Of a DNA stretch of 64,000 nucleotides, positions 18,873 to 58,868 are shown in pieces. The first letter of the stretch is position 1; every line of letters starts with the position of its first letter. Source of the stretch: Sulfitobacter albidus. GTDB taxonomy: Bacteria; Pseudomonadota; Alphaproteobacteria; Rhodobacterales; Rhodobacteraceae. Position numbers and translations under genes: made by a program. Below the pieces are notes generated by a model. The model was not told the DNA's origin. It searched no databases and saw only the letters and a program-made list of their open reading frames with translations. The stretch lies in NCBI RefSeq assembly GCF_018200035.1, contig NZ_CP073581.1, positions 740,501 to 804,500 on the forward strand, given 5' to 3'.

Positions 18873-19661
18873 TTATGCGGCGTGGGTTGCAGAGAGAAAC
18901 CCGCGCAGTCGCTCTGATTTGGGCGCGCCGAACAGCGTGTCGGGCGGCCCTTGTTCTTCGATCAGGCCCTGATGCAGGAACACGACCGTGTCCGATACAT
19001 CTGCGGCCAGTTTCATATCGTGGGTGACGATCAGCATGGTGCGCCCCTCGGCGGCAAGATCCTTGATCACGCGGATCACTTCCTGCTCAAGCTCGGGATC
19101 GAGGGCCGACGTCGGCTCATCGAACAGAAGCGCCTCGGGCTCCATGCACAGCGCGCGCGCGATGGCGGCGCGCTGTTGCTGGCCGCCCGACAGCTGCGCG
19201 GGGTAGACATCGCATTTGTCGCCGATGCCGACCTTGTCGAGATAGGCGCGCGCGGCGGCTTCGACCTCTGCGCGGTCGCGGCCCAGAACGGTCACGGGCG
19301 CCTCCATCACGTTTTGCAGGATCGTCATGTGCGACCAAAGATTGAACTGTTGGAACACCATGCTGAGGTTCGTGCGGATGCGCAGCACCTGACCCGCGTC
19401 CGACGGGCGGCGCGCGTGGCCCTCACCGCGCCAGCTGACCGGCTCCCCCTTGAAATGAACCGCGCCCTGCTGGCTGTCCTCCAGAAGGTTGCAGCAGCGC
19501 AGCAGCGTGGACTTGCCAGAGCCCGACGACCCGATGAGCGAGATGACATGGCCCTTCGGCGCCGCGATGGACACGCCTTTGAGCACCTCCAGCGCGCCGT
19601 AGGCTTTGTGCAGGTCACGGATTTCGATTACCGGGTCTTGGATACTCAAAGGGGGGCCCAT
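18873..19661 (-). CDS. amino-acid ABC transporter ATP-binding protein
   Basis: A 262-residue ATPase of the HisP/GlnQ type. ATG 19661 is chosen since the conserved strand IEIRDLHKAYGALEVLKGVS follows directly; the frame is open far upstream but that part is not family-like. Walker A is IGSSGSGKST, the signature LSGGQQQR, Walker B LLFDEPTSALD, and the switch histidine lies in LIVTHD. It is the first gene of the long minus-strand cluster and energises the two permeases. The insertion around WRGEGHARRPSDAG near residue 75 is typical of histidine/lysine-type ATPases. Confidence 0.9.
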   Translation of the reverse strand: MGPPLSIQDPVIEIRDLHKAYGALEVLKGVSIAAPKGHVISLIGSSGSGKSTLLRCCNLLEDSQQGAVHFKGEPVSWRGEGHARRPSDAGQVLRIRTNLSMVFQQFNLWSHMTILQNVMEAPVTVLGRDRAEVEAAARAYLDKVGIGDKCDVYPAQLSGGQQQRAAIARALCMEPEALLFDEPTSALDPELEQEVIRVIKDLAAEGRTMLIVTHDMKLAADVSDTVVFLHQGLIEEQGPPDTLFGAPKSERLRGFLSATHAA

Positions 19662-19744
19662 CTTCGCTTGCAGCCGGTATATGACGGCAGAATCACCGCG
19701 TATGCAAACGGATCGTGATACCCCGGGGCGAGAATGACCCTGCG

Positions 19745-20182
19745 TCAGCCGCCTTCGGCGCGTTTTCGGGCGGTTGCGCTGTCGACATCGGTGACGCCCA
19801 GCAGATTGGCGACAAGGCGCAACAGCGCGTCCTCCTCTTTCGCCCGGCGACCGTCGGCGAGGGCCACGTGCCACAGCGCCTCGACCACCGCGCGGCGGTC
19901 GTCGTAGGGCACGGCGTCCTTGATCGCGCGGGTAAAGCGCACGGTATCGGGGGCCTCGGCCTCAAATGTTTCGGCGTCCGAGAGCAGGGCGTCGCGGCCC
20001 CCATCGTCAAGCGCGTAGCGCAGCGCGATGATCTCGCGGATACGGTCACGCTCCGCGGCGCTGTAATCATTATCGGAGCGCGCGACGCGCACCAGAAGGG
20101 CGGTGAGTGCCAGACGCGCGTCGGTGTCGGGCAGCGGGGCGGGGGCCGGGTCAGTCAGCCGTTTCATAAGATCTGCAAACAT
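19745..20182 (-). CDS. TerB-family protein (copy 1)
   Basis: A 145-residue soluble alpha-helical protein of the TerB (tellurite resistance) superfamily. The recognised parts are ALTALLVRVARSDNDYSAAERDRI and VVEALWHVALADGRRAKEEDALLRLVANLLGV, the latter carrying the acidic positions that bind metal in TerB. It lies 30 bases behind a paralogue of identical length on the same strand. There are no terC, terD or terZ genes nearby, so a role in tellurite resistance is not supported; such proteins may sense metal or the membrane. Function unknown. Confidence 0.82.
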   Translation of the reverse strand: MFADLMKRLTDPAPAPLPDTDARLALTALLVRVARSDNDYSAAERDRIREIIALRYALDDGGRDALLSDAETFEAEAPDTVRFTRAIKDAVPYDDRRAVVEALWHVALADGRRAKEEDALLRLVANLLGVTDVDSATARKRAEGG

Positions 20183-20211
20183 GGAAAGCTACCTAGGCGC
20201 TTGGCGCGCGA

Positions 20212-20649
20212 TTACAAAGAGGTCAGCGCGTTTTTCCGCGCGGCGGCGATGTCCTCACCGGTCAGGCCCAGCGCGATTTCGATGTCGATCAGCTGCGCTT
20301 CTTCCAGGTCGTCGCGCTTTCCGTCGGCCAAAGCCACGGCCCACATCGCGTCCCCCAGCGCCTTGCGGTGGGCATAGTCGATCTCTTCGCGCAGGATCTG
20401 GGTGAATTCCGGTGTGCCGGGAGCGTGGCGTTCAAGCGCTTCGCAATCGGCGCGCAGCTTGGCTGCGTCCAGCGGTTTGAGATCAAAAGTGCGGGCAAGG
20501 ATGCGGTCGATCTGCGCGACCTCGGCAGCCACGTATTCACGGTTGGCCAGCGCCACACGCACCAGCAACGCCCCGAGGGCAAGCTGCGCATTGGGCTGGG
20601 GCAGGGGGCGTGGATCGGGCGCGCGGCGCGGAAAAAGGCGTTCAAGCAT
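20212..20649 (-). CDS. TerB-family protein (copy 2)
   Basis: A 145-residue paralogue of the gene just downstream, sharing ALxALLVRVA at the start and the ALGDAMWAVALADGKRDDLEEAQLIDIEIALGL block near the C-terminus. The middle diverged, so the copies are old. It has no membrane segment. It lies between a secreted hypothetical protein gene (9 bases upstream) and copy 1, probably as one short operon. No partner from a tellurite island is near. Confidence 0.82.
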   Translation of the reverse strand: MLERLFPRRAPDPRPLPQPNAQLALGALLVRVALANREYVAAEVAQIDRILARTFDLKPLDAAKLRADCEALERHAPGTPEFTQILREEIDYAHRKALGDAMWAVALADGKRDDLEEAQLIDIEIALGLTGEDIAAARKNALTSL

Positions 20650-21652: not shown

Positions 21653-22432
21653 CTAACGCAACCGGGTGAACAGCTGCGTCAGCCTGCGGGCCTCGTGATC
21701 GAGACCGTAGGGCGGGTTTAGCACAATCATGCCGGAGCCGACCATCCCATGCCCTGGACGCGCCGGGGCAAAGCGGACCTCGTGGTGCAGTGCCTCCGGG
21801 TGCGCAGCGGTCACGGCGCGCACCATCGGCACCTGCGCGCCGCTCGTCAGTACCGGATACCAAAGGGCGATCACCCCGACATTCCACGCGCGGTGCAGCT
21901 TGGCGACATGGCGCGGGATCTCGGAGTAGTCGGATTTCACCTCATAGCTGGGATCGATCAGCATCACGCCCCGGCGCGGGGTGGGAGGGCATTGCGCATA
22001 GGCCATCTCGAACCCGTCCTGGCGGTGGCATCTTGCCGGGTACGGCGACATGGCGAAATCAAGCGCGGCGTGCTCGGCCGGGTGCAATTCGGCGACATGG
22101 ATCTGGTCGGTCTCGCGCAGCAGATGTGCCGCGATGAGCGGCGAGCCGGGGTAGGCGGTCTGCCCGTGCGCGGATCGCACAGCCGCGAGCGCGCGGGCGA
22201 AAGGATGCGCCGCATCGAACCAATCGACCACCCGCGCGATCCCGGCGGCGGCCTCCCCCGTCTTGAGCGCGGCGGCGTCCTCCAGATCATAAAGCGCGCG
22301 GCCACCGTGGGTCTCAAGATAACTCAGCGGCTTGGGCTTCTTAATCAGGTAATCCAGCATCCACGCAAGCAGCGCGTGTTTATGCACATCCGCCAGATTA
22401 CCCGCGTGATAGACATGTTGGTAACTCAGCAT
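21653..22432 (-). CDS. rlmJ: 23S rRNA (adenine(2030)-N6)-methyltransferase
   Basis: A 259-residue methyltransferase that modifies A2030 of 23S rRNA. The N-terminal MLSYQHVYHAGNLADVHKH and YLETHGGRALYDL are the RlmJ family elements. The catalytic motif reads LIDPSYEVKSDY, where the usual N6-adenine methyltransferase motif is DPPY; the change P to S at the third position is worth noting, and other catalytic parts look intact. It ends with NPPYGLDHEARRLTQ. It stands just downstream of the AT-rich spacer that holds the candidate small RNA. Confidence 0.9.
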   Translation of the reverse strand: MLSYQHVYHAGNLADVHKHALLAWMLDYLIKKPKPLSYLETHGGRALYDLEDAAALKTGEAAAGIARVVDWFDAAHPFARALAAVRSAHGQTAYPGSPLIAAHLLRETDQIHVAELHPAEHAALDFAMSPYPARCHRQDGFEMAYAQCPPTPRRGVMLIDPSYEVKSDYSEIPRHVAKLHRAWNVGVIALWYPVLTSGAQVPMVRAVTAAHPEALHHEVRFAPARPGHGMVGSGMIVLNPPYGLDHEARRLTQLFTRLR

Positions 22433-22569
22433 TGGGAAACCTCTTGCAGGGCGTGTGTGTCAGGCGACATATCAATTTTGCGAAGGTGCTGTGGATCGAA
22501 TTGTGGATAAATTATGGCAAAAAGCCTCAAGTTGCTCGATTTAAACAAATAATTTATGTCAAATTTATG

Positions 22570-22601
22570 TTGACCTATCATGCACTTTAAAGTAGTATAA
22601 T
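22570..22601 (+). promoter_or_regulatory. promoter of the candidate small RNA
   Basis: TTGACC (22570-22575) is followed after 17 bases by TAGTAT (22593-22598), overlapping a consensus TATAAT (22596-22601), in an AT-rich stretch unlike its surroundings. It points toward a strong terminator at 22754, with no gene start in between. Confidence 0.58.
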
Positions 22602-22607
22602 CTGCAG

Positions 22608-22782
22608 TAGAGTGCACGCCAAAAGGGTATCCATCTACTTGGTGACTATCATACCGAAGTAGATATCACCGGTTCTCATCCGACTGGTGGCGACCCCGTA
22701 ACCTACATTCATCTGCCCCGGAGCCTGTTTGCCTGCATTGCTCCAACACTTTCAGAGACGCCGCCACGGCGTCTCTTTTTTT
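22608..22782 (+). ncRNA. candidate small regulatory RNA next to pyrG
   Basis: Between rlmJ and pyrG lies about 350 bases without a protein gene. A near-consensus promoter at 22570-22601 faces a rho-independent terminator at 22754-22782, which defines an RNA of about 175 nt. Inside are several hairpins: ATCTACTT with AAGTAGAT (about 22632-22663), CACCGG with CTGGTG (one G-U pair), and GGAGC with GCTCC near 22720-22745. No frame has a start codon with a ribosome binding site over a useful length. It does not match tmRNA, 6S, RNase P or SRP RNA motifs as far as can be told by eye. Confidence 0.55.
22754..22782 (+). terminator. rho-independent terminator (plus strand)
   Basis: AGAGACGCCG and CGGCGTCTCT pair perfectly around the loop CCA and are followed by a run of seven to eight T. 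The T run is on the plus strand, so it ends plus-strand transcription; it lies 2 bases from the pyrG stop codon on the other strand but is wrongly oriented for pyrG. Confidence 0.85.
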
Positions 22783-22783
22783 G

Positions 22784-24430
22784 TCAGACCAGCCGTGACA
22801 TTTCCTTGGCCGCGCGCACGAAATCCTTGAACAGCGGGTGGGGGTCGAAGGGTTTGGATTTCAGCTCCGGGTGGAACTGCACCCCGATAAACCACGGGTG
22901 ATCCGACCATTCGACGATCTCCGGCAGCTTGCCGTCCGGCGACATGCCCGAAAAGCACAGGCCCGCTTCCTCCAGCTTGTCGCGATAGGCGATATCGACT
23001 TCGTAGCGGTGGCGGTGACGTTCGTCGATGGCCGTGCCGCCATAGACTTCGGCCACTTTCGAGCCTTCGGTAAGGGTCGCGTCATAGGCGCCCAGACGCA
23101 TGGTGCCGCCCTTGTCGTCAGTGGCGGACCGTTCGACCTTGTGGTTGCCCTGTATCCATTCCTTGAGGTGGTAGACCACCGGCTCGAACCGCTTTTTGCC
23201 CGCCTCGTGGTCGAATTCCTCTGACCCTGCACCGGTCACGCCGGCCACGTTGCGCGCCGCCTCGATCACGGCCATCTGCATGCCCAGACAAATGCCCAGA
23301 TAGGGCACCTTCCGCTCGCGCGCGAATTGCGCGGCCTTGATCTTTCCTTCGGTGCCGCGCTCGCCAAAGCCGCCGGGCACGAGGATCGCGTGATAGCCCT
23401 CCAGATAGGGAGCGACATCGTCGGATTTGTCGAATACTTCGGCGTCCACCCATTCGACGTTGACCTTCACGCGGTTGGCCATGCCGCCGTGGGTCAGCGC
23501 CTCCTTGATGGATTTATAAGCGTCCTCAAGCTGCGTGTATTTGCCGACAATGGCGACGGAAACCTCGCCCTCGGGATTGTTCACCCGGTCGGACACATCG
23601 CGCCACACGGCCAGATCGGGCTTGGGCGCGGGCGAGATCTGAAACGCGTCCAGCACCGCCTGATCGAGCCCCTGTTCGTGGTAGGCCAGCGGCGCATCGT
23701 AGATCGTGGGCAGATCGTAGGCGGCGACAACCGCCTCCTTGCGCACGTTGCAGAACAGCGCGATCTTCTCGCGCTCTTTTTCCGGAATAGGATGCTCGGA
23801 CCGGCAGACAAGAATATCGGGCGCGATCCCGATGCTCTGCAATTCCTTGACGGAGTGCTGGGTGGGTTTGGTCTTCAACTCACCGGAAGCGGCGAGATAG
23901 GGCAGCAGCGTCAGGTGCATGAAAATGCACTGGCCGCGTGGCTTGTCGTGGGAGAACTGGCGGATGGCTTCGAAAAACGGCAGCCCTTCGATATCGCCCA
24001 CGGTGCCGCCGATCTCGCAGAGCATGAAATCGACCTCGTCGTCGCCCACGGCGAGGAAATCCTTGATCTCGTTGGTGACGTGGGGGACGACCTGAATGGT
24101 CTTGCCCAGATAATCGCCGCGCCGCTCCTTTTCGAGAACGGTCGAATAAATCCGACCCGACGAGACGGAATCGGTCTTGCGGGCCGGCACGCCGGTGAAA
24201 CGCTCGTAATGACCCAGATCCAGATCGGTCTCGGCGCCATCGTCGGTGACGAAGACCTCGCCGTGCTCGAACGGGCTCATCGTGCCGGGGTCGACGTTGA
24301 GATAGGGGTCAAGCTTGCGCAGGCGCACGCTGAACCCGCGGGCCTGCAACAGCGCGCCAAGGGCAGCAGAGGCAAGCCCCTTGCCCAGCGATGAAACCAC
24401 CCCACCGGTAATGAAGATATAGCGTGCCAT
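22784..24430 (-). CDS. pyrG: CTP synthase
   Basis: A 548-residue enzyme that makes CTP from UTP, ATP and glutamine. ATG 24430 is chosen since [29 protein letters not shown] is the universal N-terminus; the upstream extension is not family-like. The synthase domain has [39 protein letters not shown], and the GATase domain has [19 protein letters not shown] (nucleophile Cys) and [19 protein letters not shown] with the His-Glu pair. It follows secG by 190 bases on the same strand, a common alphaproteobacterial order. Confidence 0.97.
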
Positions 24431-24620: not shown

Positions 24621-24992
24621 TTAGTCCAGCGTCGGAACCAGCGGCGCGTTGTCACCCTGCGCGGGTGGCAGCAGGCTGTCGGCATCGGGCAGGCTGCCCG
24701 CATCGTCGTCTTGCTGGTTCAGCGCGGGCGGCGCCGCCGTCAGACGGTCGATCACCGACACACCTGCGGACGAACGTGCCGAGACGATCGTCAGCGTGAT
24801 CGAGGTGATGACGAAAGCGATGCCCAAAAGCCATGTGACCTTGCTCATCGGAGTGGCCGGTGGGCGCCCGGAGGTCGCCCCGCCACCGCCGCCACCGATG
24901 CCCAGACCGCCCCCTTCGGAGCGTTGCAGCAGCACCACGGCGATCAGGGCCAGCGCAAGGATGAGGTGGATGATCAGGACGACATTTTCCAT
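24621..24992 (-). CDS. secG: preprotein translocase subunit SecG
   Basis: A 123-residue SecG with two membrane helices (residues 3-22 and about 54-73) joined by the Gly-rich loop LQRSEGGGLGIGGGGGGATSGRPPATPMSKVTW, a family hallmark. The C-terminal extension, rich in Pro, Asp and Ala, is usual in Rhodobacterales. SecG aids the SecYEG channel in the inner membrane. It precedes pyrG on the same strand and is divergent from the nitrile hydratase genes. Confidence 0.93.
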   Translation of the reverse strand: MENVVLIIHLILALALIAVVLLQRSEGGGLGIGGGGGGATSGRPPATPMSKVTWLLGIAFVITSITLTIVSARSSAGVSVIDRLTAAPPALNQQDDDAGSLPDADSLLPPAQGDNAPLVPTLD

Positions 24993-25117
24993 GGGGTACG
25001 CTGCTCGTGGGTTAGGGCTGGTGTCTGGCTATTGGGGGTATCTAGGCAAGTTTGCGCGGCGGGGCAAGGGACGGATCACGCTGGACAGAACCTTGCGCAG
25101 GGTGCAGATTTCACCGC

Positions 25118-25732
25118 ATGCCCCATGATGATCCTCACCACCCGCATTCGCTGCTGCCCTCTGACCCCGCGCTGCGGGTCAAGGCGCTGGAAACCGTGCT
25201 GACGCGCAAGGGTCTCATCGATCCGGCCGCGCTCGACGCGATCATCGACACCTACGAGACCAAAATCGGCCCGCGCAACGGCGCGCATGTCGTGGCCAAG
25301 GCGTGGACGGATCCCGCGTTCCTCCAGGCGCTGCGCGACGACGCCACGCAGGCGGTCGCCGATCTGGGATACTACGGCCGTCAGGGAGAGCATCTGGTGG
25401 TGGTTGAGAACACGCCCAAGCGGCACAACATGGTCGTGTGCACGCTGTGCAGCTGCTACCCGTGGCCGCTGCTGGGCATTCCGCCGGGGTGGTACAAATC
25501 CGACGCCTACCGCGCCCGCGCCGTGCGCGAGCCGCGTGCGGTGCTGGCGGATTTTGGCGTGACGCTGCCTGAGCAGACAGCGGTGCGCGTGTGGGATTCG
25601 ACGGCGGAGGTCCGTTATCTCGTGCTGCCGATGCGGCCCGAGGGGACCGATGGCATGGATGCGGAGGCGCTGGCGGCGCTTGTGAGTCGTGACAGCATGA
25701 TCGGCACGGGTCTGGTGGAGGCGTTGAGATGA
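25118..25732 (+). CDS. nthA: nitrile hydratase subunit alpha (cobalt type)
   Basis: A 204-residue subunit of the metalloenzyme that hydrates nitriles to amides. ATG 25118 gives the normal N-terminus ([21 protein letters not shown]). The metal motif is VCTLCSC, with Cys108, Cys111 and Cys113; Thr109 in place of Ser indicates the cobalt rather than the iron type. Two of the cysteines are oxidised after translation in known enzymes. [30 protein letters not shown] is a further family block. The stop overlaps a short reading frame that leads into nthB. Confidence 0.94.
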
Positions 25733-25826
25733 GCCGGTACATTCAATTCACGGAGGCCGAACGCGGCTTTTGCAAAGCCGCTGCCTCGGCCGCGTCGCCC
25801 TCAGGAGGGCGACGGAGATGAGCCGG
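25726..25826 (+). repeat. 12-bp direct repeats bordering an 89-bp hairpin-rich segment between nthA and nthB
   Basis: GAGATGAGCCGG occurs at 25726-25737 and again at 25815-25826; each copy contains an ATG at the same place. The segment between holds two strong hairpins: GCGGCTTT/AAAGCCGC (25763-25781), with an outer GGCCGA/TCGGCC, and CGTCGCCCTC/GAGGGCGACG (25793-25814). Removing one repeat and the segment would place nthB directly on the nthA stop with an ATGA overlap, so this looks like an insertion or duplication at the junction. Confidence 0.62.
25729..25821 (+). CDS. 30-codon linker ORF between nthA and nthB (doubtful)
   Basis: An ATG at 25729 overlaps the nthA stop and the frame ends with TGA 25819-25821, which overlaps the nthB ATG 25818. 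The product would be 30 residues (start [20 protein letters not shown], Arg-rich end). The N-terminal MSR copies the start of nthB because of the direct repeat. It may keep ribosomes coupled across the inserted segment rather than make a useful peptide. Confidence 0.3.
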
Positions 25827-26492
25827 GTGCACGACATGGGCGGCCGCTTTGGCGACGGGCCGGTGGTGCCGGAGCCGGAGGGTGAGGTTTTTCACGCCGA
25901 GTGGCACAAGCGCGCGCTGGCGGTGACACTGGCGAGCGGATCGCTGGGCCAGTGGAACATCGATATCTCGCGCCACGCGCGCGAGAGCCTTGCGCCGATG
26001 GATTACACTGCGTTTACCTACTACGAAAAATGGATGGCGGGGCTGGCGGAGTTGCTGGTGGCGCGCGGGGTGCTGACCGAAGCCGATCTGGCAGGCGGGA
26101 CCGACGCAGACCCGCATCCGCTGGCCGACCGAAAGCTGACGGCGGAGGCCGTGCCGGAAGTTTTGGCGCGCGGCGGTCCTGCGGATCGCGACAGCGACAC
26201 AGCACCCGTGTTCAAACCGGGCGACCGGGTGGTGACGCGCCGCCTGGCGCAGAACACGCTGGTGGCGGGTGGGCACACGCGGCTGCCGCGCTACGCTGCC
26301 GGGGCGCGGGGCGAGATCCTGCGCTACCACGGCACGCATGTGCTGCCAGACAGCAATGCCCATGATCTGGGCGAGGCGCCGGAGCCGCTTTACGCGGTGG
26401 TTTTCCCCGCGTCCGAGCTTTGGGCGCAGCCGGAGCATCCGAACGACGAGGTCGTGCTGGATCTGTGGCAAAGCTATCTGGCGCCGGCATGA
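25818..26492 (+). CDS. nthB: nitrile hydratase subunit beta
   Basis: A 224-residue beta subunit, starting at ATG 25818 with the family opening [16 protein letters not shown]; an upstream extension in the same frame is not family-like. The C-terminal half is the SH3-like beta barrel with FKPGDRVVTRRLAQNTLVAGGHTRLPRYAAGARGEIL and the end region YAVVFPASELWAQPEHPNDEVVLDLWQSYL. It pairs with nthA to build the active site. Its TGA overlaps the ATG of the accessory gene. Confidence 0.94.
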   Translation: MSRVHDMGGRFGDGPVVPEPEGEVFHAEWHKRALAVTLASGSLGQWNIDISRHARESLAPMDYTAFTYYEKWMAGLAELLVARGVLTEADLAGGTDADPHPLADRKLTAEAVPEVLARGGPADRDSDTAPVFKPGDRVVTRRLAQNTLVAGGHTRLPRYAAGARGEILRYHGTHVLPDSNAHDLGEAPEPLYAVVFPASELWAQPEHPNDEVVLDLWQSYLAPA

Positions 26493-58735: not shown

Positions 58736-58764
58736 TTGACGCGGTGCTTTTGCTCACGTAACCC
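58736..58764 (+). promoter_or_regulatory. putative promoter of metZ
   Basis: TTGACG (58736-58741) is followed after 17 bases by TAACCC (58759-58764). The -10 is weak, but the start of the transcript it predicts falls directly at the beginning of the riboswitch. Confidence 0.42.
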
Positions 58765-58765
58765 T

Positions 58766-58822
58766 CGCGCCGTGGTGATTTGTTACCGGATTGCAGGCCA
58801 CGTAAAACAAGCTGCTAAAAGG
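58766..58822 (+). ncRNA. SAM-II riboswitch upstream of metZ
   Basis: CGTGG (58771-58775) pairs with CCACG (58798-58802) as P1; the loop carries TGATTTGTTACCGGATT, close to the conserved TGATTT-ACCG-ATTGCAG core, and GCAG (58793-58796) can pair with CTGC (58812-58815) as the pseudoknot P2, followed by TAAAA. This is the SAM-II pattern known from alphaproteobacterial metX/metZ/metA leaders. Bound SAM should lower metZ expression. Confidence 0.82.
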
Positions 58823-58868
58823 TCAGGATGAAAGGCCCCTTTCGCTTGACCGCGTGTGGGGTTTTTTT
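58821..58868 (+). terminator. hairpin and T run in the metZ leader
   Basis: GGTCA pairs with TGACC and, inside, GAAAG with CTTTC; a run of seven T lies 10 bases behind (58862-58868). It may act as the expression platform of the riboswitch. The distance between stem and T run is unusual, so a role in translation is equally possible. Confidence 0.45.

Follow-up and report, generated by a model that had tools for sequence, protein, structure and literature searches.

For bidirectional promoters of bacteria, 18 bp is reported as the commonest spacing between the two transcription starts (PMC10268837, PMC12825309). The locus between pyrG and rlmJ of Sulfitobacter albidus resembles these promoters, because its predicted starts have this 18-bp spacing and its -11A and -7T bases are reciprocal. 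It differs in that the reverse RNA at the pyrG locus ends at a strong terminator, and in that the starts here are predicted only. The intergenic small RNAs (sRNAs) of Ruegeria pomeroyi and Paracoccus denitrificans are a second group of described systems. In Ruegeria 99 putative sRNAs were reported, 30 of them trans-encoded (PMC4809877), and in Paracoccus half of the 16 confirmed sRNAs are described as being without sequence relatives (PMC5107571). Like the RNA considered here, they are intergenic, non-coding and often without relatives; unlike it, they were seen as transcripts, whereas the pyrG-side RNA is known from sequence alone. The main texts of the two surveys do not mention pyrG (PMC4809877, PMC5107571). 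StsR of Rhodobacter sphaeroides is likewise an sRNA of a related bacterium, but it was ruled out as the same RNA, being 72 nt long and described in a paper whose main text does not mention pyrG (PMC8307010). A search of one literature library found no publication on Sulfitobacter small RNAs or on a Roseobacter intergenic sRNA at pyrG.

Results

The window, that is the whole stretch of 64,000 nt that was analysed, corresponds to C1:740501-804500 in a genome of 3.86 Mb. According to the gene calls, its minus strand carries the genes of RlmJ (21653-22432; closest named relatives in Sulfitobacter), CTP synthase or PyrG (reading frame ending at 22784) and SecG (24621-24992). The rlmJ-pyrG spacer spans 22433-22783 (351 nt), with both flanking genes on the minus strand. 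A promoter and a terminator on its plus strand delimit a predicted non-coding RNA, about 178 nt in length (22605-22782). The G+C content is 29% in 22500-22604 and 52% in the predicted RNA, against 64% in the window.

The intrinsic terminator lies at 22754-22782 of the plus strand. It has a perfect stem of 10 pairs, 7 of them G-C (22754-22763 with 22767-22776), a loop of 3 nt and a run of seven T (22776-22782) whose first T is inside the stem. The T run is found on the plus side only and ends one base before the pyrG stop codon. A rho-independent terminator with its T run on the RNA strand is what is looked for in intergenic sRNA genes of the intrinsically terminated kind. The terminator exceeds chance expectation, for none of 5000 shuffles of the spacer held one as strong. 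On the minus strand of the spacer the terminator scan listed no intrinsic terminator.

How are strong terminators placed relative to genes elsewhere in this genome? To this end, the window and 20 further stretches of the same genome, 464 kb altogether, were surveyed with a fixed criterion. The survey gave 27 strong terminators, and for 23 of them the closest gene upstream lies on the terminator's own strand. According to gene calls that are crude (for instance, a shadow frame at 18951-19718 was taken over an opposite-strand ORF of 333 aa), the four exceptions are the spacer terminator and those at L135:9728, L139:16286 and L149:9345. By the same crude calls only two of the 27 are antisense to both neighbours, the spacer terminator and the one at L135:9728. 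In the latter, which has 8 pairs, the T run is interrupted and the upstream gene lies 23 nt off; the spacer terminator is 322 nt from its upstream gene.

Upstream of the predicted RNA there is a sigma70-like promoter on the plus strand (22570-22598; TTGACC, 17 bp, TAGTAT), which matches the consensus at 9 of 12 positions. An opposed promoter-like site with the same number of matches (22594-22622; TTGGCG, 17 bp, TATACT) faces rlmJ on the minus strand. A perfect TATAAT is also present at 22596-22601, but it is 20 bp from TTGACC. The plus promoter is weak evidence, because an equally good plus site occurs in 19.8% of 2000 shuffles of 22440-22640 (42.4% for either strand). The positions of the two sites and the published geometry give a pseudo-symmetric -10 element, TAGTATA (22593-22599), shared by both directions. 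At 22594 and 22598, what is -11A in one direction coincides with -7T in the opposite one. The predicted starts are 22605-22606 on the plus strand (C at 22605, A at 22606) and 22587 on the minus strand (A), so that 22605 and 22587 are 18 bp apart. A shared -10, reciprocal -11A and -7T and this start spacing are the features by which bidirectional promoters are recognised. The window has 13 promoter-like sites, and no other two of them share a -10. The arrangement is uncommon, not unique, because 400 kb from other parts of the genome held two such pairs in a total of 55 promoter-like sites and one was found in 1.45% of 2000 shuffled islands. Since the plus and minus sites share one -10 in the 18-bp geometry, the predicted RNA is best read as the properly terminated divergent partner of rlmJ transcription.

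Other short motifs surround these sites. An inverted repeat, TGCACT ... AGTGCA (22581-22616), flanks the shared -10, and there is a palindrome, ACTTTAAAGT, at 22584-22593; the two might form a putative operator for both directions. Further upstream, TGTGGATCG and TGTGGATAA stand in tandem at 22490-22510. The DnaA-box consensus is TTATCCACA, and TGTGGATAA is a perfect DnaA-box 9-mer. Sites with at most one mismatch to the DnaA box are not significant, because the window has six of them against 4.07 expected.

In the predicted fold of the plus-strand RNA, three hairpins precede the terminator. They are SL1 (22633-22664; 12 pairs and one bulge, pair probabilities 0.53-1.0), SL2 (22667-22689; 8 pairs, 0.60-0.98) and SL3 (22720-22744; 5 + 3 pairs, 0.93-1.0). 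Between SL2 and SL3 runs a linker (22690-22719) that is mostly unpaired apart from a weak 3-bp hairpin at 22690-22699. The whole RNA folds with -58.4 kcal/mol and a z-score of -3.47, and none of 200 shuffles is as good. This score leans on the terminator, because z is -1.42 once the terminator is removed, with 19 of 200 shuffles folding as well. The predicted internal fold is then within chance expectation. The opposite strand folds with -62.5 kcal/mol (z -2.53; 4 of 200 shuffles as good).

No plus-strand ORF of at least 20 aa lies wholly inside the predicted transcript. One of 33 aa with a TTG start (22729-22830) begins inside it and extends beyond the terminator, and on the minus strand a 63-aa ORF with a GTG start (22426-22617) overlaps the start of rlmJ. 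The latter and an open plus-strand stretch of 57 residues have no protein relatives in Pfam, PHROGs or a large protein set, and a hidden small protein was rejected on this ground.

No Rfam family matches the spacer at its gathering score. Weak matches to ncS54 (22.3 bits, gathering score 43), BjrC1505 (20.3 bits, 50) and suhB/mmgR (16.5 bits, 41) run through the terminator hairpin of the spacer RNA, to which the first two owe much of their score. All three lie well under their gathering scores and were rejected. The same was decided for mir-363, whose weak match covers only the dyad around the promoter, and for 6S RNA (RF00013), which is not matched at the spacer and has its single match in the genome elsewhere. 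The 6S candidate, at C1:1887233-1887387, reaches 42.4 bits, under the cut-off of 46.4; the Rfam 6S model may be insensitive in this genome.

A sequence-only reading made before this analysis can be compared with these results. It had proposed an RNA of about 175 nt that has no coding frame, belongs to no recognised family and lies on the strand opposite to its neighbours, and all of this agrees with what was found. So do the perfect terminator that it described and the statement that its orientation excludes pyrG, the terminator being directed away from the transcription of both neighbours. Three descriptions need correction. The near-consensus promoter is promoter-like, but it has 9 of 12 matches only and is equalled in many shuffles; the AT-rich island covers 22500-22604 but not the RNA itself; and the several internal hairpins are predicted as SL1-SL3, but their fold without the terminator is unremarkable.

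Are there relatives of the RNA in other genomes? The searches used a sample of one genome per species. At the DNA level, 59 other genomes gave nothing at E <= 0.001, E. coli nothing at E <= 0.01 and plasmids and phages nothing at E <= 1, and no second copy was found in the genome itself. In an even sample of the family, 196 of 394 genomes match at E <= 1, which is about chance level, because E is given per genome. One of them reaches E <= 0.001 besides the genome's own match (L114; 34 nt, 8e-4). Fifteen family matches were inspected, 19-40 nt long, and 13 of them overlap an open frame at least about 270 codons long; open frames reach 185 codons in L114, the best match, and 122 in L127. Such overlap is an indication only, because shadow frames are frequent at this G+C content. 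L114 and L115 hold no Rfam matches. The search of 385 genomes of the class gave, besides the genome's own match, one match of 28 nt (G655; E 6e-5). It aligns to 22539-22566, the AT-rich part outside the RNA, and is taken as chance. One pattern of 16 nt matches 13 viral contigs, where the match extends to 16-19 nt only, and two longer patterns match no viral contig.

A covariance model, R1, was built from the single sequence and run on the large sets with strict filters, so distant relatives were possibly missed. In 62 genomes of the genus it found the genome's own copy and one partial match (G003; positions 117-148, E 0.74). In the 394 family genomes there were two full-length matches besides its own, with 24.0 and 22.7 bits and E-values of 0.01 and 0.03 per genome. 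In the alignment of L170 and L171 to R1, the best agreement is a terminator, and both loci were rejected as relatives. The match in L170 looks like the 3' end of another gene, because it starts at the first base beyond an ORF of 126 aa. The match in L171 begins within an ORF of 510 aa, presumably GroEL, and ends just past it. On these searches there is no credible relative among the 62 genus, 394 family and 385 class genomes, the plasmids and the phages, and the unit is found in one genome only among the genomes searched.

The comparison of the spacer itself started from 112 loci; 30 of them, own genome included, are a part of the matches of one genus search. At 51 of the 112, rlmJ and pyrG are near enough for the spacer to be taken out, which gave 38 distinct spacers including that of the window. 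Spacer length at the 51 loci varies from 27 to 1798 nt, and long spacers often hold unrelated ORFs; those in L004, L006 and L023 look alike by eye. None of the remaining 37 spacers is related to that of the window, which gave one blastn match of 23 nt (E 0.63) against L003-L111. A search for perfect stems in the 120 nt next to pyrG found no comparable plus-strand terminator in any of the 37. In that search L011 has a weak 6-bp plus-strand site, and L040 and L111 have a terminator on the minus strand. By eye, several spacers, L011 and L019 among them, have next to pyrG a GC-rich hairpin with imperfect pairing whose rlmJ side carries A's, that is, a terminator-like site oriented as pyrG is. Judged from these spacers, the pyrG-rlmJ junction is variable among relatives.

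As for function, Hfq is encoded in the genome (E 3e-33) and the predicted RNA would carry a U-rich 3' tail, the two features looked for in an Hfq-dependent sRNA. These two features make a trans-acting sRNA plausible. Three segments of the RNA were compared with 372 translation-start regions, which derive from the crude gene calls. No mRNA target signal above shuffles was found, the duplex energies being equalled or bettered by shuffles in 29, 9 and 28 of 60 cases.

Discussion

What kind of unit is this? The terminator, the way it points and the absence of a coding frame lend good support to the view that the spacer holds a non-coding transcription unit which stands alone and ends at an intrinsic terminator. 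Somewhat better than even is the chance that it is a transcribed, orphan, lineage-specific sRNA gene read from the shared promoter. RNA polymerase would bind the pseudo-symmetric -10 element in either orientation. Heading one way it would give an rlmJ transcript whose leader is about 155 nt long. Heading the opposite way it would make the RNA of about 178 nt, to be released at the terminator just before the pyrG stop codon, and this RNA would persist as a structured, U-tailed sRNA if it is made and is stable. Given that the unit is transcribed, we tentatively propose that the RNA pairs with mRNAs in trans with Hfq, a role whose chance we put a little below even. In favour of the sRNA gene are the terminator with its T run on the plus side only, its absence from shuffles and from the other spacers, its placing antisense to both neighbours, the shared -10, the lack of protein relatives, the encoded Hfq and the 6S candidate being located elsewhere. 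Against it stand the lack of credible relatives in the searched genomes, the frequency of promoter-like sites in shuffled AT-rich DNA, the two further -10-sharing pairs in the genome, the C at the plus start predicted at 22605, the unremarkable fold without the terminator and the duplex energies that shuffles equal or better. The orphan status is usual for sRNAs of this kind, because half of the confirmed Paracoccus sRNAs are described as lacking relatives (PMC5107571).

The leading rival is that the RNA is a by-product, the functionless divergent half of the rlmJ promoter. The terminator, and not the RNA, would then matter, being kept for, or happening to have, the effect of sparing pyrG antisense transcription. 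The shared -10 element fits such a by-product, as do the T run that stops just short of the pyrG stop codon, the ease with which shuffles equal the fold once the terminator is taken away, the lack of credible relatives in the searched genomes and the lack of a target signal above shuffles. Against this, stem-loops over 150 nt are more than a simple barrier would require, and the prediction shows SL1, SL2 and SL3 as well-defined hairpins. We regard the by-product reading as rather unlikely. The unit might also be what remains of an acquired element or a decayed gene at a variable insertion spot, with the terminator left behind. This would agree with spacers that range from 27 nt to 1.8 kb at the 51 loci, the long ones often with unrelated ORFs, and with a spacer whose upstream part is AT-rich and which occurs in a single genome of those searched. 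A remnant is nevertheless improbable, given that searches of proteins, plasmids and phages found no match and that the genome itself showed no second copy. Might the structure act on the minus strand instead, as the 3' end of the pyrG mRNA or as the rlmJ leader? The energy is lower there (-62.5 against -58.4 kcal/mol, with 4 of 200 shuffles as good at z -2.53), and no minus-strand terminator is listed between pyrG and rlmJ. But the T run is on the plus side only, and, measured against its own shuffles, the plus strand is the more exceptional of the two (z -3.47, none of 200), which makes action on the minus strand very improbable.

The sRNA gene from the shared promoter, if that reading is right, may be newly born and specific to the species: a divergent transcript from the symmetric -10 element upstream of rlmJ would have gained a strong terminator and stable hairpins, and pyrG would be protected by this terminator. 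We consider this history rather unlikely. If it is true, the locus is an example of promoter symmetry giving rise to new non-coding RNA genes. The unusual terminator-defined unit is real; as an sRNA candidate it is fair, unproven and ordinary in kind. If it is transcribed, it is a new candidate sRNA of a Sulfitobacter-type bacterium, and the -10 that it has in common with rlmJ would be a concrete, testable case of non-coding RNA genes arising from promoter symmetry. If it is not transcribed, the locus illustrates how an AT-rich island together with a lone terminator can pass for a gene.

The sequence-only reading went further and proposed an undescribed regulatory RNA. The terminated non-coding unit in this proposal is well supported, but regulation is not, as there is no target signal and a by-product would fit equally. 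The search for relatives with conserved hairpins, which that reading had named as a test, found no credible relatives, and this weakens the claim; orphans are, on the other hand, reported to be common among such sRNAs (PMC5107571).

Some further features of the window were noted. Two neighbouring TerB-family proteins are encoded on the minus strand at 19745-20649. A nitrile hydratase alpha-chain gene is found at 25052-25732, within 25052-26492, and the ORF that follows it there may, by our own reading, be a putative beta chain. A SAM-alpha riboswitch lies at 58762-58838, with an Rfam score of 64.4 bits.
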